Assembly (NCBI RefSeq): GCF_000209165.1
Contig: NC_009044.1
Coordinates: 1,674,001 to 1,738,000, forward strand
Source: Scheffersomyces stipitis CBS 6054
Lineage: Eukaryota > Ascomycota > Pichiomycetes > Serinales > Debaryomycetaceae
Length of the DNA stretch: 64,000 bases
Direction: 5' to 3'
Shown: piece after piece, positions 44,683-51,105 of the stretch
Layout: the number at the start of each line of letters is the position of its first letter
How positions within the stretch are numbered: position 1 is the first letter of the stretch
The notes under the pieces: model-generated
Seen by the model: only the letters and a program-made list of their open reading frames with translations
Told to the model about the DNA's origin: nothing
The model's database searches: none
Program-made: the position numbers and the translations under genes

Positions 44683-44694
44683 ATGAAAGAATGG

Positions 44695-44979
44695 TGACGG
44701 GAAACCTGTATATGGGTAGGCCGGTTTTCCTTTTGGACTTAGAAATGGATTAATGGATATGGAGTTATATTAATCACTGAAGAACTATTTAAAATCTGTT
44801 TAAACTAGAGGGAATCCTCTGGGCTTTATATATTCTTCATCCTCATCTCATCTCTGTAGTTTGTTGCGTTATTCAACAAAAGAAATGTAGAATTTCTGTT
44901 TCGGATATTTATCGGATCCAATCCGAGGTTGGTCACCTCGGAAACCATTATTAGAGATCCTGTATCTTATTTTCCATCA
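44695..44979 (-). repeat. 3' LTR of the retrotransposon
   Basis: 285 bp, identical to the other LTR. Read on the element strand it begins TGATGGAAAATAAG and ends GTTTCCCGTCA. A TATA box (TATATAAA) lies at 44832-44825 on the minus strand. Upstream of the TATA, between 44942 and 44860, the sequence is packed with perfect inverted repeats (see findings). In this copy the TATA faces YET3 and could drive read-out transcription. Confidence 0.95.
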
Positions 44980-44987
44980 CTCCCCTT
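44980..44987 (-). other. Polypurine tract (plus-strand primer)
   Basis: AAGGGGAG on the element strand, directly abutting the 3' LTR, is the expected plus-strand primer of reverse transcription. It overlaps the pol stop codon TAA (44988-44986). Confidence 0.8.
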
Positions 44988-47900
44988 AACGCTTTGTACG
45001 TGAATCAAATGTAGAAGCGTTTCTGACATTGGAAACTAGATGATCCCTAAGAGTAATAAATTGCGCTCTAGATAGCGCTTTAGTAAACATGTCAGCCGTG
45101 TTTACTGATGTCTTGACATAGTCAAGTAGGATTTCTTTATCCTTAATCAATTGTCTCAACAATTTGATATCGATGTCCACCATTCTCCTACTATGGGAGA
45201 TATTTTCGTTTTTGCAATTGGCGATTACAGCTTGATTATCTTCATAGATTTGTACGCTTGACACTATGAATCCAAGTTCTCTTAAGATGTTCTTTATACG
45301 GATCGACGTCTCTGCAGTCAGCTTTAAAGCGACCAATTCGCAACTAGCAGAACTTGTAGTAATGTTATGTTGACGTTTAGTGGTCCAGCTAACCAAATGT
45401 CCGTTGAGATAAATGGCATTTCCAGTAATTGATCTTCTATCCTTCTCTGGAGCGAAGGAAGCATCTGTGTAAGCAACTATGTTAAAATCTAATTTCTTGT
45501 TTGATGATTGGTTGCTCTCATATTTTAATTCATAATCTATGTTCAGCTTGAGGTAACGAATGCAGTATAATAATTTCTGAAAATCATTTATATTTGGGTT
45601 GGCACCTTTGCTACCCAACTGATTGGCAGCAAAAGATATATCAGGACGAGTATTTCGATTTGCCCAAAGCAATAATCCTACTCCCTTTTGATATAGCTCT
45701 TTACCCTTTGCATCCAATAATGTTTGGTTGTTTATCGGATTGTCCTCGATAAAGTGATCTTTAACAGTGGTGGATGCATTATTGTACTTCGACTTGTCTT
45801 TGATCATTGGAATATACTTTCCATATGATTCTTCAAGTTTGAATTGCTTTACAATATTTTGTAAGTATTCTGTCTGGGACATAATGTAACCGTTCTCGGT
45901 CTTATGAAATTTTACCCCAAGGTATTCCTTGATTTCTTCAAGGTACTTCATGTCGAAATGCTTTTGTAGGTCTCGTTTGAATTCTTTAAGCATCCTTTCG
46001 CTTGATGACACCATGAATAAGTCATCAACATAAACAGCAATGATGATTATGTCACCTTTGTTCTTTTTGTGGAACAATCCTGAAGCGAATGATGATTCCT
46101 CAAAACCGAAGTTTTGAATAACCTTGAGTAATGTGTGGTACCATTCGTACCCACTTTGTCGCATACCATATATTGCCTTTTTAACCAACCAGCATTTATT
46201 CTTTGGCAATTCGTATCCTTTCGGTGGACGGATGTAGATTGGCTCATTGTTCGATAATGGCGCGTTTAGATACGCAGATTCAATATCGAGCTGGTGGATA
46301 ATATAATTGTTAGTGGTGGCAATAGAAACTAGTAATCTGATGGTCAATAGGTCTACAACGGGGGATGATATTTTTGATGGATCGAAATCCCGGCCGGGTT
46401 GTTGTAGAAAACCTCTAACGACACATCTGCTTTTGTATTTAACGCCTTTTATTCCTCCATCCTTAGATGTATGTACCCATCTGGTGGATATGGCTTTCCT
46501 GCCTTTCGGAATATCAACGACTTCAAAAACGTTCAATTTAATGAATTTGTCTATTTCACGATCCATGGATTCTATCCAATTTTTATCGTTGTAATCAATG
46601 TTTTCGATAACAGCATTTATAACATTGATTGGTAAATCATCCGAGTCTTCTTCAATTTGATCGATCAATGAGAATAAGCAATGTGCACCTTCGATATTTG
46701 TACATACGTCAGTTGATCTAGACTCAATCAAACTGGCCATAAGGTTGATTGTGCTTATACTCAGGAAGTCTGGTGATGTTTTCCTCTGTCTTTTATTGTC
46801 GCCCCCTTCTGTATCAGTTTTAGTTTTAGCTGATACAGAATAGACGCTGCTCTTTTGGCCCGGATGCGTCTTTGTCCTTGTTTTAAGTGTCTTACTTTCC
46901 GGAGTAAAATTGGGTGACCGCTTTAATTTAACTGATGGTTCTGGTGTGAGTCCCTCTTGCATTCTTTGACGTTTCAAAGCTCGGACGTCTCTGTTTGAAG
47001 GTGCTTGAATCATCTCTGGCTCATTCTTGATAGTTGTGCTCTCCCCTTGATTGTCAATCGGTTGAACAATGCCATGTTTCGTCTTGACGTTACCAGTGTC
47101 TTTAGACGATTTCGTATCTGAATTGAGTTCGGTAATTTCAATTGCAGCTGGGATGTGCTTATCATTTGCATTATCGCTTTTATTGTTATGATCTTTAACA
47201 ATAATTTGCTTTGAGGCAGGATTTTGAGATTCTTTTAATGTTGCAACGGGTGCATCTTCATTAATGAGTTCATATTTGGTTTCATCAGCCTTCTGCTCTC
47301 TTTGAGTAGAAGTTATGCCTGAGTCGGATTTATAGCCCAGTGGAGTATCTCTCTGGATATCCTCTCCGGATACAGGAGCTACCTGTTTATTGACTGGGGT
47401 AGGTGTTCGTACGTTTGTCCCCCTCACTAATGTGGACGAATTAATTGCAGTGCTCGTGCTCTCTCTATGAGTCTTATCTGTAGTAGTAATAGGTTTTGGA
47501 TGTTCAGGATTTGTCATCCAAGGAAATTTGTTAGTAACGTTCGTGTACACTTCGGGATGTTTCTTGGCTAAGATCAGGAAAGAGGGTTGAGGATCAGTTG
47601 AACAATTATCCGTGGGCGACGGATCCCTCCTTGCTTCTGAAATACCACGGGTCATCACGGCTGATTTTTCGTGGATGCCCGCTGATGTGGAAGGTACATT
47701 TTCCTGTCGAACGGATTCAAAAGTATCATAGTCATGGGCTTCTTGATTAAGTTTAAATTGAGCAGCAGCGACTTGGGCATTCAAGGTCGCTTTAACTTCG
47801 TTCGCCTCCTGAATTTGAGAGAAATCAAGCGATTTGAAGTATGAGTTAATATGTGCCATGGAACTCATGAACTTGACATTTACTGTCTGAATAACTGGGA

Positions 47901-49290
47901 AGTTTTTCGTACTGACGAGGATTTTATATGTGTAGTTGTCTTCGCAGAAACCAATAAAAGTACCAAAGAATGTCATCGGGTATTGCTTATTATTTGGATT
48001 AGCTGGTGCATTGGGTAGAGGAATATGCAATTTTTTAAATTCCTCTGGCGAAGATGCTTTAACTGACACGTCCAAGCCAAATTGAATATATGTCGGTCTG
48101 TATGCATCGAGCTTATTAAAGACTTCATAAGGAGTCCTACCTTTGAGAGCCTTGTTGGGCGTATGGTTCTTAATGTACAGCACATATTCAATGATGTGGT
48201 CAAAAAGACAAAGAACCTTGTCTGTGTAATTCGGAAATTGAAGGATAATCTTGTATATATTTCGCAAGATCGTACGGTTGTGGGATTCAGCAAGTCCATT
48301 CAATTCCGGAGAGTAGCTAGCAATCTTATCTCGTTTTATGCCAAGTTTGGCAAGCAGTTCGGTGTCAGGTAGTTCTTTGGCATTGTCTGCTCTAAAATGC
48401 GCTATCCTTTCTGGAAATCTATTGTTCCATATGTGCAAGAGAAGGAGAACATCATCCATGACTTGCTTATGAGATGTAAAGATAAGTTCGGTAAATCGGG
48501 AGAAATGATCAATGAGTGTAGTGATAAAGTATTTTTTGTGGCCGATAAGGAAGGGTCCCATCGTGTCACTACTAACTCTTTCTAACCGACGTGTGGCAGG
48601 TCTTTGGGTGGTGTGGTTATGTGATGCTTGTCTAATGTTCACGGCGTGACATAGGCGACATTCTTTTACCCTACGGATACTCTCTTCCGTATCAACTACC
48701 TTAATAAATCCCATTTTTGCAAGGGATTGTAAATTTGAAATTGCCATATGACTGCATTGTAGATGGTGATAAAACCAGTCTTGGGGGCCGTGTAGTTCGG
48801 CAACTTCAGCAGGAATATTATGTATTGTGGAATATTCCTCTTCAAAAAAATGAAGTGATTCGATATTATTTTTGGCAGAAAGTTTAGAAATGAAAAGATT
48901 ATTCTTTCTATTAGCAACTTTGAGCATGTGTTCACTATTGGCAATATAGGCTCCGTCGTCTGTGAGAACGGTTGTCCATCCTTGTTCAAGTAGTTGGCCA
49001 ACTGATATGAGATTACAAGAGATTTCAGGGACGACCATAACGTTGGAGATAGATACTTTTGGGTCTAGGTGTATGTCAAGCGTACCTTTTGCAATAGCTC
49101 GTACGGTTCTTCCGTCAGCAACACGAAATGATGTACCTTGGCCTTTAGGCTCATAGGTTATATCATGCAATAATTTTGTGGAATTAACACACGTTCTTGA
49201 ACAACCTGAATCGTATAGAAATAGTACATTTGACAGCAGTGGTTCGTCACCTAAGTAAAAGATTTGACGATTTGGGTGACCACCAAACCA
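44986..49290 (-). CDS. pol: Retrotransposon Pol polyprotein (protease, integrase, reverse transcriptase, RNase H)
   Basis: A frame of 1434 codons starts right after the gag stop codon, with no ATG, so it should be made as a Gag-Pol fusion by readthrough of TAA. In order: an aspartic protease with DSG at residues 27-29; the HHCC zinc motif (HLQCSH ... CRLCH, about 177-215); the integrase core, with Asp in SSDTMGPF, Asp in RADNAKE and Glu in NGLAESHNRT; a variable linker of about 400 residues with low complexity; reverse transcriptase, with YVDD near residue 1085; and RNase H (AYTDASF) ending in ADMFTKALSRAQF. All catalytic residues appear intact. The frame has no internal stop. The linker is Ser/Thr/Lys-rich and probably disordered. 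Confidence 0.92.
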   Translation of the reverse strand, partial: WFGGHPNRQIFYLGDEPLLSNVLFLYDSGCSRTCVNSTKLLHDITYEPKGQGTSFRVADGRTVRAIAKGTLDIHLDPKVSISNVMVVPEISCNLISVGQLLEQGWTTVLTDDGAYIANSEHMLKVANRKNNLFISKLSAKNNIESLHFFEEEYSTIHNIPAEVAELHGPQDWFYHHLQCSHMAISNLQSLAKMGFIKVVDTEESIRRVKECRLCHAVNIRQASHNHTTQRPATRRLERVSSDTMGPFLIGHKKYFITTLIDHFSRFTELIFTSHKQVMDDVLLLLHIWNNRFPERIAHFRADNAKELPDTELLAKLGIKRDKIASYSPELNGLAESHNRTILRNIYKIILQFPNYTDKVLCLFDHIIEYVLYIKNHTPNKALKGRTPYEVFNKLDAYRPTYIQFGLDVSVKASSPEEFKKLHIPLPNAPANPNNKQYPMTFFGTFIGFCEDNYTYKILVSTKNFPVIQTVNVKFMSSMAHINSYFKSLDFSQIQEANEVKATLNAQVAAAQFKLNQEAHDYDTFESVRQENVPSTSAGIHEKSAVMTRGISEARRDPSPTDNCSTDPQPSFLILAKKHPEVYTNVTNKFPWMTNPEHPKPITTTDKTHRESTSTAINSSTLVRGTNVRTPTPVNKQVAPVSGEDIQRDTPLGYKSDSGITSTQREQKADETKYELINEDAPVATLKESQNPASKQIIVKDHNNKSDNANDKHIPAAIEITELNSDTKSSKDTGNVKTKHGIVQPIDNQGESTTIKNEPEMIQAPSNRDVRALKRQRMQEGLTPEPSVKLKRSPNFTPESKTLKTRTKTHPGQKSSVYSVSAKTKTDTEGGDNKRQRKTSPDFLSISTINLMASLIESRSTDVCTNIEGAHCLFSLIDQIEEDSDDLPINVINAVIENIDYNDKNWIESMDREIDKFIKLNVFEVVDIPKGRKAISTRWVHTSKDGGIKGVKYKSRCVVRGFLQQPGRDFDPSKISSPVVDLLTIRLLVSIATTNNYIIHQLDIESAYLNAPLSNNEPIYIRPPKGYELPKNKCWLVKKAIYGMRQSGYEWYHTLLKVIQNFGFEESSFASGLFHKKNKGDIIIIAVYVDDLFMVSSSERMLKEFKRDLQKHFDMKYLEEIKEYLGVKFHKTENGYIMSQTEYLQNIVKQFKLEESYGKYIPMIKDKSKYNNASTTVKDHFIEDNPINNQTLLDAKGKELYQKGVGLLLWANRNTRPDISFAANQLGSKGANPNINDFQKLLYCIRYLKLNIDYELKYESNQSSNKKLDFNIVAYTDASFAPEKDRRSITGNAIYLNGHLVSWTTKRQHNITTSSASCELVALKLTAETSIRIKNILRELGFIVSSVQIYEDNQAVIANCKNENISHSRRMVDIDIKLLRQLIKDKEILLDYVKTSVNTADMFTKALSRAQFITLRDHLVSNVRNASTFDSRTKR

Positions 49291-49293
49291 TTA
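49246..49293 (-). promoter_or_regulatory. Gag-pol readthrough site: in-frame TAA with possible pseudoknot
   Basis: Gag ends with TAA (49293-49291) and pol continues in the same frame. Three nt after the stop, TTTGG (49287-49283) can pair with CCAAA (49275-49271). The loop segment GTCAC (49280-49276) can pair with GTGAC (49250-49246), an H-type pseudoknot. In Candida Tca2, gag and pol are likewise divided by an in-frame stop followed by a pseudoknot, there a UGA. The fold is drawn by hand and unproven. Confidence 0.6.
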
Positions 49294-50496
49294 ATTGTTG
49301 GCGAAGTTCTTATTTCCACTGTTCTTTTGTGATTCAGTGTAATTTTGGTTCTTTTTGTATCCATGTGTATGACTTTTCTTATTTTGAAGTTGTTTATCCG
49401 ACGAATTCAGAGGCATATCAATAAAATTTGAATCGGATCTCATTTTAAGAAATGTATGTCTGAGTGGAGCTGCAACCTTTGATGAATCATTTTTAAAAGC
49501 TTGGTATTGTTCATTTAGTTGTCTACCTAAAGCTTTGACATTTGATTCGTTACTGTTGTTGACATATATGAAGTAGGCAATAGCATCGCGGGAGTTTAAT
49601 GTTTTTAAGAACTGGGTAATCTGACGATCGGTAACGGAAGTTATACGTACAAGATGATTCTCAATATCTGAAGTATTGGTGAGTCTTTCGATCTTTTTAA
49701 ACTTCTTGATATATTCAATGATCTGTGCTGAACAATCATTACCATCGTGAGTTTCGATGTATCCGATGATTTTCTTCAATGTAACATTTCCAGCTTCGTT
49801 TTCAAAAGCTGTTGCTGTGTTTTCGCTTAGGATACTTGCTATATTTTCGGCCACTAATTTATAGAAGTATACCTTATTGGCTGTACTATGACCGTCAAGA
49901 AAAACCGTGTCTTTTGAGGTTGATTTGAGGTTAAAGTCATTCAATATGATCTCCTTTAATGGCGGAATCCGAGTGTAGACGCGTTTGAGTGTGGTCTTAT
50001 ACTTGGCTATAGTCTCAGGGCTTGTATCCAATTCTGGCAACTTTTGAAGTTGGTCTTCATATTTATCAATTAGTCTCCATACCGACCTTCTAATTTCTTC
50101 TTTAGAATTCGAAGTACTATATCCCTTACCTCTTTCAAGGGTCTCGGATATAGGAGTGTTAATATTTTCCAGCAGGTCTTCGTCAGAATCCAGCGATGAC
50201 TCCGAATCTGATTGGGACTCTGATCCATTACCAGCATTTGTAGCATCAGCCTTTTCCTTACCCTTTGGTTCCTTGTTTGGAACTTCTCCGAGATTAAGCT
50301 TGTTAATTAAGTTCGTAAGGTTTTTGTTTACCTCATTGAACCTTTCGTCGATTTCGTTGAATTTTTTATCAAACTCACCCTTCAGGACAGGGACTAATGA
50401 TTCATCAGTCAAGGCCTTGGGTTCAGTTGGAGATTGACAATCAACGAATTCATTTTCGAACTTGTCGTAAACTTCAGCAGCTAAAGAGGAGGACAT
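49291..50496 (-). CDS. gag: Retrotransposon Gag (nucleocapsid-like) protein
   Basis: A 401-residue Gag. It has an N-terminal helical stretch (FDKKFNEIDERFNEVNKNLTNLINKLNLG), an acidic, Ser-rich middle near 85-105, and a mostly helical core. The tail is basic and Asn/Lys-rich (KKSHTHGYKKNQNYTESQKNS). No CCHC zinc knuckle was found, so RNA binding probably relies on the basic tail. The start is the first ATG, 43 nt after the end of the 5' LTR, with an A-rich leader. It forms the shell of the virus-like particle by family. Translation stops at TAA; the pol frame follows without a shift. Confidence 0.9.
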   Translation of the reverse strand: MSSSLAAEVYDKFENEFVDCQSPTEPKALTDESLVPVLKGEFDKKFNEIDERFNEVNKNLTNLINKLNLGEVPNKEPKGKEKADATNAGNGSESQSDSESSLDSDEDLLENINTPISETLERGKGYSTSNSKEEIRRSVWRLIDKYEDQLQKLPELDTSPETIAKYKTTLKRVYTRIPPLKEIILNDFNLKSTSKDTVFLDGHSTANKVYFYKLVAENIASILSENTATAFENEAGNVTLKKIIGYIETHDGNDCSAQIIEYIKKFKKIERLTNTSDIENHLVRITSVTDRQITQFLKTLNSRDAIAYFIYVNNSNESNVKALGRQLNEQYQAFKNDSSKVAAPLRHTFLKMRSDSNFIDMPLNSSDKQLQNKKSHTHGYKKNQNYTESQKNSGNKNFANN

Positions 50497-50527
50497 TTTT
50501 GGGTTGGCTTAAAAATGGTTGCAACTT

Positions 50528-50539
50528 TGACTTCTAATC
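50528..50539 (-). other. Primer-binding site matching the tRNA-Arg(UCU) anticodon arm
   Basis: Directly next to the 5' LTR the element strand reads GATTAGAAGTCA. Its complement, TGACTTCTAATC, equals the 5' side of the anticodon stem and the loop of yeast tRNA-Arg(UCU) as I recall that sequence, not a tRNA 3' end. This fits priming by a tRNA cut in its anticodon loop, as in Drosophila copia and reported for Tca2. Confidence 0.7.
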
Positions 50540-50824
50540 TGACGGGAAACCTGTATATGGGTAGGCCGGTTTTCCTTTTGGACTTAGAAATGGATTAATG
50601 GATATGGAGTTATATTAATCACTGAAGAACTATTTAAAATCTGTTTAAACTAGAGGGAATCCTCTGGGCTTTATATATTCTTCATCCTCATCTCATCTCT
50701 GTAGTTTGTTGCGTTATTCAACAAAAGAAATGTAGAATTTCTGTTTCGGATATTTATCGGATCCAATCCGAGGTTGGTCACCTCGGAAACCATTATTAGA
50801 GATCCTGTATCTTATTTTCCATCA
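50540..50824 (-). repeat. 5' LTR of the retrotransposon
   Basis: 285 bp, identical to the LTR at 44695-44979. On the element strand its TATA box (50677-50670) should drive the genomic transcript toward gag. The inverted-repeat block lies at 50787-50705. Confidence 0.95.
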
Positions 50825-51105
50825 AATGGGTGCAAAATATTTCTCTGAGTGGTGGTGGTAAACAGTGTGAGACGATGACTAGTTGAGGGACATGCAACTA
50901 CAGTTATACTATAATCATCGGTGAGATGATTGCAAAGTTTCCAGTTTCTTATGTATATATATCTATTAATTATACCTATATTAATTGTACTCGGTTCTAT
51001 GTCTGACAAACCAGAGAATATAATGCAATGGTGAGAAAAAGATAATGCAAGCTGAATGGTCTTTCGAACATATTGAGGTTTTCTCGCTGGCATGGGTACG
51101 TCACG

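Follow-up and report, generated by a model that had tools for sequence, protein, structure and literature searches.

Introduction

In-frame stop codons between gag and pol are known from Tca2 (UGA), from elements of fission yeasts (UGA), from MuLV (UAG), and from other systems. In Tca2, also called pCal, of Candida albicans, gag and pol are arranged in the Ty1/copia order in one frame that is split by a single stop codon, the LTRs are 280 nt long, and a candidate pseudoknot lies 3' of the stop (PMC2194720, PMC7175516). As published, the stop is UGA, the spacer is purine-rich and 8 nt long, and the pseudoknot loop contains an in-frame AUG; readthrough was assayed in S. cerevisiae, and the authors state that no evidence was obtained for the pseudoknot (PMC2194720). 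A review from 2020 still regarded the way in which Tca2 gets past the gag stop as undetermined (PMC7175516).

In MuLV, an 8-nt spacer separates the in-frame UAG from a compact pseudoknot whose loop 1 is 1 nt long, and readthrough was measured at 7–9% (PMC4178896). With UAA in the same signal, readthrough is 1.7- to about 3-fold lower in reporters and the virus replicates less well (PMC4178896), and some pomovirus readthrough sites are listed with UAA (PMC3542737). Because the MuLV signal still works with UAA and pomoviruses have such sites, UAA is not prohibitive for readthrough. Among fission yeast LTR elements, Tj1, Tcry1, and Tosmo have an in-frame stop between gag and pol, which is essential for Tj1 transposition; these are Ty3/gypsy elements in which UGA is followed by CU within a strictly conserved 8-nt context (PMC10085805).

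The genome of Scheffersomyces stipitis contains the centromeric LTR element Tps5. Ava, Bea, and Caia of the same species are LTR elements described with two ORFs, one for Pol and one for an LTR-associated protein suspected to be Gag (PMC8546629). In the main text of that description, "stop codon" has no match, and its passages on these elements do not mention frame or recoding; no report of UAA in S. stipitis elements was recognized in the open-licence literature. The locus described here lies in a 64-kb stretch of this genome, referred to below as the window. The original prediction held that gag and pol are separated there by an in-frame TAA, followed by a pseudoknot that would promote readthrough in the manner of Tca2.

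Results

A Young Ty1/copia Element on the Minus Strand

A complete Ty1/copia LTR element, structurally intact and very young, lies on the minus strand of the window. Its parts, in the order in which the element is read, are the following.

50825..50829, upstream copy of the target-site duplication, CCATT in the sense of the element; the same 5 nt flank the other end at 44690–44694
50540..50824, minus strand, 5' LTR, 285 nt, TG...CA, identical to the 3' LTR
50526..50539, minus strand, primer binding site adjoining the 5' LTR, complementary to the anticodon arm of tRNA-Arg(UCU)
49291..50496, minus strand, gag, 401 aa from the ATG at 50496, ending in TAA
49291..49293, minus strand, in-frame UAA between gag and pol (TAA at 18 of 18 junctions)
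44986..49290, minus strand, pol with protease, integrase, and reverse transcriptase in copia order, without an AUG start at its 5' end
44695..44979, minus strand, 3' LTR, 285 nt, identical to the 5' LTR
44690..44694, downstream copy of the target-site duplication, the same 5 nt as at 50825..50829

The gag open frame extends from 50508 to 49291, and pol continues in the same frame from 49290 to 44986 for 1434 codons. As originally predicted, then, gag and pol share one frame split by the TAA at 49293..49291 and no frameshift is needed; the shared frame argues against frameshifting, which was rejected as a candidate. The second prediction, that pol has no ATG before the protease DSG motif, was borne out as well: DSG is codon 27 (49212–49204) and the first in-frame ATG is codon 85 (49038–49036). 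The LTRs and the protease–integrase–reverse transcriptase order are those of Ty1/copia elements (Pseudoviridae). Pfam matches in pol are Pol_BBD (25–104), RVT_2 (920–1164), and a weak rve match (234–321) below its cut-off, and Gag has no match in Pfam. Protein searches returned a gag of 401 aa that is 99% identical (P0087), and the window pol matches the S. stipitis protein G9P44_003126 at 634 of 639 residues.

A 594-codon frame on the same strand (window:51106-52890), which by eye resembles a membrane transporter of the auxin-efflux-carrier type, lies next to the insertion, with the element about 280 nt past its 3' end.

All 13 full-length LTR matches in the seven copies of the family to which the element belongs (family A) are 100% identical to the window LTR; one copy (L017/L044) shows just 165 nt of a 5' LTR. 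With open gag and pol, identical LTRs, and a 5-bp target duplication in the window copy, it follows that Pol has worked recently, and S. stipitis transposons have been proposed to be active (PMC8546629). A coding region split by a stop might suggest that the UAA is a damaging mutation and that the copies are dead. This reading is scarcely conceivable, since in 7/7 near-identical family A copies gag and pol are open with the UAA as the only in-frame stop, the same stop is common to four families, and both the identical LTRs and the proposed activity of these transposons speak against it. Among the copies scored (33 of 109 candidates), none was a potential Pol donor lacking the stop.

Directly adjoining the 5' LTR, a run of 14 nt is complementary to the anticodon arm of tRNA-Arg(UCU). 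A 13-nt pattern of this site occurs at 28 places in the genome, compared with 0 for the reversed control; by their coordinates, 18 lie at 18 elements, one at the decayed copy L050, and nine elsewhere, and the four of these nine that were fetched are all tRNA-Arg(TCT) genes. The primer site of Tca2 is likewise directed against an internal part of tRNA-Arg(UCU), a feature that the window element shares.

Four Families and Their Relatives

Four families with copies reaching the start of pol were found in the S. stipitis genome (A, seven copies; B, one; C, six; D, four), and these numbers are lower bounds because 33 of 109 candidate loci were scored; the 18 junctions considered below are all scored loci reaching the start of pol. 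Relative to family A, pol identity is 84% in B, 43% in C, and 27% in D, which comprises two subfamilies, D1 and D2. These families are probably the published Ava, Bea, and Caia elements. One family C copy (L019) has a TGA further along in pol. In a protease–integrase tree of 14 rows with distant outgroups, A/B joins C (support 100/99) and D joins Candida subhashii Pol (support 97/98); in this small sample, therefore, the families with UAA form no exclusive group.

Fifteen more distant reverse-transcriptase matches have open frames of 1428–1429 aa (ten matches) or 1796–1951 aa (five matches). The one examined, a copy of a further family, E, apparently of the Tps5 type (L038/L051, G000:C6:890000-897322), has a single 1428-codon frame without an internal stop and so differs from the four families in the same genome. 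Beside it lies another frame of opposite orientation that has a reverse-transcriptase-like end.

Besides many plant and other distant copia proteins, the protein search matched Candida subhashii Pol (P0003), a Metschnikowia pulcherrima fragment (P0089), six unnamed Pol or partial Pol sequences (P0004–P0008, P0090), an S. stipitis fragment (P0088), and the gag noted above; among the matches listed, none bears the name of Tca2 or C. albicans. The viral-contig scan gave no relatives outside the S. stipitis genome.

Several loci merit separate mention. Family B (L018/L048) is 84% identical to A in pol and just 47% in gag, and the nucleotide identity of the two is 0.75 across the last 25 codons of gag and 0.91 across the first 25 of pol; this contrast could reflect mosaic elements joined close to the junction, or faster evolution of gag. 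L052 (G000:C7:837089-838048) is an isolated frame of 326 aa that resembles gag and has no internal stop; no pol was seen in the 2.4 kb covered, and the frame ends in TGA AGG TTT AGG at a junction-like place; it could be a relic or a captured gag gene. L049, L050, and L009 (G000:C1:2301009-2301149) are decayed relatives of the A/B group, of which L009 has kept TAA at the junction, followed by AGG in place of TGG.

UAA at the Gag–Pol Junction

TAA stands at 18/18 junctions examined in families A, B, C, and D; the junction search used family patterns that contain TAA and missed 0 of the 18 loci. Upstream of it, gag is open for 362–440 codons, and downstream the first in-frame ATG of pol is codon 78–182, always past the DSG motif at codon 27–37 (18/18). 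The host uses UAA as an ordinary stop, as 6 of 20 long ORFs elsewhere in the window end in TAA (TAG 10, TGA 4).

A consensus nucleotide context around the UAA was rejected, as the bases on both sides vary between families. The base after UAA is U, A, or G depending on the family; family C has UAAA, which has been termed an optimal stop (PMC4178896). The TMV-type readthrough motif CARYYA was not found after the stop at the junctions, and in place of the MuLV-type UAG followed by G or a purine-rich octamer, the junctions have UAA-U, UAA-A, and UAA-G. Purines make up 4 of the first 8 nt past the stop in A, B, and C, 5 in D1, and 6 in D2, so that the window element lacks a purine-rich spacer of the Tca2 type, which in D2 is arguable. 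What all five junction types (A, B, C, D1, and D2) have in common is GGU 6 nt past the stop; GGU also encodes glycine, and selection on the protein may be what conserves it.

These features bear on how Pol could be made. A separate transcript from a promoter inside the element would have a parallel in the weak junction promoter measured in Tca2, which did not follow Pol induction there (PMC2194720). The absence of an AUG before the protease in any family argues against a free, AUG-started Pol with protease: at each of the 18 junctions there is no in-frame AUG before DSG, and a Pol started at an AUG would lack the protease active site. An internal promoter is thus an improbable source of Pol.

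Families A and B would allow a more elaborate route, in which ribosomes reinitiate at UAAUG and then shift +1 at CUU AGG into pol. Both motifs occur in A and B: the AUG of UAAUG (49289–49291, minus strand) lies in the -1 frame, which meets CUU AGG at 49255–49250 exactly where a +1 shift enters pol, and these are the same letters as the Ty1 +1 slip site. Such a route would, however, demand two recoding events. There is no AUG at the stops of C and D, neither motif survives intact in a relic of the A/B group, and in family A, where the reinitiation motif UGGGA was sought over 120 nt upstream, it does not occur. The chance that this route operates, even in A and B only, is very slim.

Removal of the stop by splicing from a minor share of the RNA has in its favor 5' splice-like hexamers upstream of the stop in the scanned region of A, B, D1, and D2. 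None of these hexamers is found in C, and a limited consensus scan of up to 150 nt 3' of the stop gave no match to the branch patterns used in any of the five junction types, which makes splicing extremely improbable.

With no AUG before the protease, no frameshift, and no branch site match within 150 nt past the stop, what is left is that the UAA is read as sense. Bypass of the in-frame stop to yield Gag-Pol is well supported by this comparison of sequences, and the corresponding part of the original prediction, a stop-based strategy, may be retained.

Candidate RNA Structures 3' of the Stop

Both pairings of the predicted pseudoknot are present in the sequence: TTTGG/CCAAA 3 nt after the stop, and GTCAC/GTGAC about 25 nt apart. 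The strands concerned, together with those of an alternative nested stem-loop, are listed below.

49283..49287, minus strand, stem 1, 5' strand, UUUGG (+3 after the stop)
49271..49275, minus strand, stem 1, 3' strand, CCAAA (+15); CCAGG in B, paired through G-U
49276..49280, minus strand, stem 2, 5' strand, GUCAC (+10; GUCACC with one more base); GUCGC in B, still paired
49246..49250, minus strand, stem 2, 3' strand, GUGAC (+40), 25 nt further on
49282..49284, minus strand, GGU at +6, shared by every one of the five junction types and contributing the outer pairs of the nested stem-loop
49241..49243, minus strand, ACC, which can close the nested stem-loop with GGU

In predicted H-type folds of all five types, pairing is possible between a strand just 3' of the stop and the loop of an inner hairpin. 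The following lines give, for each type, stem 1 and the inner helix; the rank of the best H-type fold among all in-frame positions of that element when stem 1 may begin 3–10, 5–9, or 0–12 nt after the codon; the dinucleotide shuffles (stem 1 at 0–12 nt, stricter loop 2) and the protein-preserving synonymous-codon shuffles that do as well; and the rank of the nested stem-loop with the synonymous redraws that match it. The energy model was a simple one of our own (stacking energies plus a fixed penalty), three start ranges of stem 1 were tried, and the geometry was examined after the data had been seen.

A: UUUGG/CCAAA, GUCAC/GUGAC; 36/1813, 33/1813, 16/1813; 5/200, 53/400; nested 64/1817, 72/400
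B: UUUGG/CCAGG, GUCGC/GUGAC; 87/1806, 126/1806, 71/1806; 35/200, 110/400; nested 32/1812, 86/400
C: GGUGGU/ACCAUC, UCAAUA/UGUUGA; 20/1476, 14/1476, 32/1476; 7/200, 20/400; nested 26/1502, 19/400
D1: GGUUU/GGACC, GUCUCU/AGGGAC; 31/1312, 20/1312, 52/1312; 77/200, 94/400; nested 110/1317, 82/400
D2: GGUCU/GGACC, GUCUCUA/UAGAGAC; 6/1306, 4/1306, 10/1306; 0/200, 4/400; nested 46/1300, 15/400

Combined over three lineages by Fisher's method, the ranks at 3–10 nt give p = 1.3e-4 when A, C, and D2 are used and 1.1e-3 when B, C, and D1 are used, and the synonymous-codon null gives 0.004 and 0.075 for these two sets; three of the five junction types (A, B, and D1) are not significant against synonymous shuffles. 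Among the stops of 20 other window ORFs of at least 300 aa, some of which overlap one another and may not be genes, none reaches the weakest of the five junctions (best -4.5 compared with -6.0). Plain MFE at the junction of A is unremarkable (z -1.19, equaled by 26/200 shuffles; z -0.61 to +0.43 in other runs). A conserved simple hairpin by MFE was rejected because A, B, and D1 show only weak values (z -1.2 to -1.5); those of C and D2 are stronger (z -2.6 and -2.8). Conservation of synonymous codons between A and B in the first 25 codons of pol ranks 44 of 1417 overlapping windows, and between D1 and D2 no special conservation is seen at the junction (rank 189 of 947). By these models, the case for junction RNA structure is thus good for C and D2 and weak for each of A, B, and D1 on its own, and the modeled pseudoknot of the window element by itself exceeds chance only modestly.

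Covariation, proposed as a check with the original prediction, is present in part. Three substitutions between A and B fall inside the proposed stems and all remain paired as G-U, C and D can adopt the same topology with different sequences, and between D1 and D2 two stem changes stay paired and one end pair is lost. Within A/B and within D the changes are one-sided; changes on both sides of a stem occur only between families, in an alignment made by hand. The stems were compared by hand because MAFFT put the D loops in the wrong place when it aligned the five junctions; as the protein matches come without junction DNA, covariation was judged only among families of one genome. In the relic L009, stem 2 is mismatched and the end pair of stem 1 is lost; being decayed, this copy was counted neither for nor against the pseudoknot. 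The predicted spacer between stop and stem 1 is 3 nt in A/B and 6 nt in C and D. Since about 8 nt is usual in viral readthrough structures (PMC3542737), the spacer in A is short.

A nested stem-loop is available in all five types as well, with the GGU at +6 closing with ACC at +44 to +47 (combined p 0.0015–0.0017 for ranks and 0.013–0.055 for synonymous redraws). It uses much of the inner helix of the pseudoknot in the MFE structures of B, C, D1, and D2, and in family B the GUCGC strand (49276..49280 in A) serves as one of its strands too. The MFE structure of A is built from other strands. A and B differ at five positions from +6 to +52; none of these lies in the two 6-bp stems of that structure, and two of them hit its 3-bp third stem, breaking it in B. 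On these models, the nested stem-loop and the H-type pseudoknot are to be regarded as equal alternatives, so the exact pseudoknot of the original prediction becomes one of several competing folds.

Such folds need not be what matters. The UAA could be read through with the help of remote RNA sequences or a host factor peculiar to these yeasts rather than a local 3' fold, as suggested by Tca2, whose 300-nt junction failed in S. cerevisiae, with 0.3% readthrough like a control stop, although the LTR transcript is the source of its Pol. A role of remote sequences was proposed in that study, and a trans factor was named as a possibility (PMC2194720). The weakness of A and B alone against synonymous shuffles and the family-specific fourth base (U, A, or G) fit this explanation as well. 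On the other side, the junction windows of three lineages stand near the top of the structure rankings and the GGU at +6 is common to five types, although as a glycine codon it may be protein-kept. Dependence on remote sequences or a host factor is a possible but doubtful explanation.

Discussion

We consider it fairly probable, from the sequence comparisons and fold models, that in this Tca2-like Ty1/copia element the UAA is read through by a minority of ribosomes, helped by RNA structure 3' of the stop. Most ribosomes would stop at the gag UAA and release Gag, and a small fraction would decode it by a near-cognate tRNA and continue in frame to produce Gag-Pol, the low ratio of readthrough setting the excess of Gag. 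The likely stimulator would be a structured RNA that begins 3–6 nt past the UAA and folds as an H-type pseudoknot or as a bulged stem-loop. That the bypass is readthrough rather than another route, and that RNA structure acts in it, we infer.

Of the likeness to Tca2 drawn by the original prediction, the layout holds: Ty1/copia order, one frame split by a single stop, LTRs of similar length (280 and 285 nt), and a candidate 3' pseudoknot. A working stop-plus-pseudoknot mechanism in Tca2 itself lacks support in the published assays (PMC2194720). By its published description, Tca2 also differs in its UGA, its purine-rich spacer, and the AUG in its loop; in the window element the stop is UAA, the 8 nt after it include 4 purines, and no AUG precedes the protease. 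MuLV resembles the C and D models in its compact pseudoknot and 1-nt loop 1, and differs from all families here in its UAG and 8-nt spacer (PMC4178896). Unlike the fission yeast elements, with their fixed context, the present families vary around the stop (PMC10085805).

More generally, these junctions look like a rare case in nature of UAA serving as a recoding site. Four divergent families in one yeast have the same stop and comparable candidate folds, and family A has seven intact, very young copies. These families offer natural variants that can be compared by reporters in the native host, so that a stalled question becomes testable. It is possible, though doubtful, that a whole lineage of yeast copia elements relies on efficient readthrough of UAA, usually a tight stop, through a fast-evolving 3' fold anchored at the GGU at +6, its topology kept and its sequence replaced between families, and that this fold functions only with the translation machinery of this yeast clade. 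If this were true, dependence on the translation machinery of the clade would explain the failure of the Tca2 junction in S. cerevisiae.
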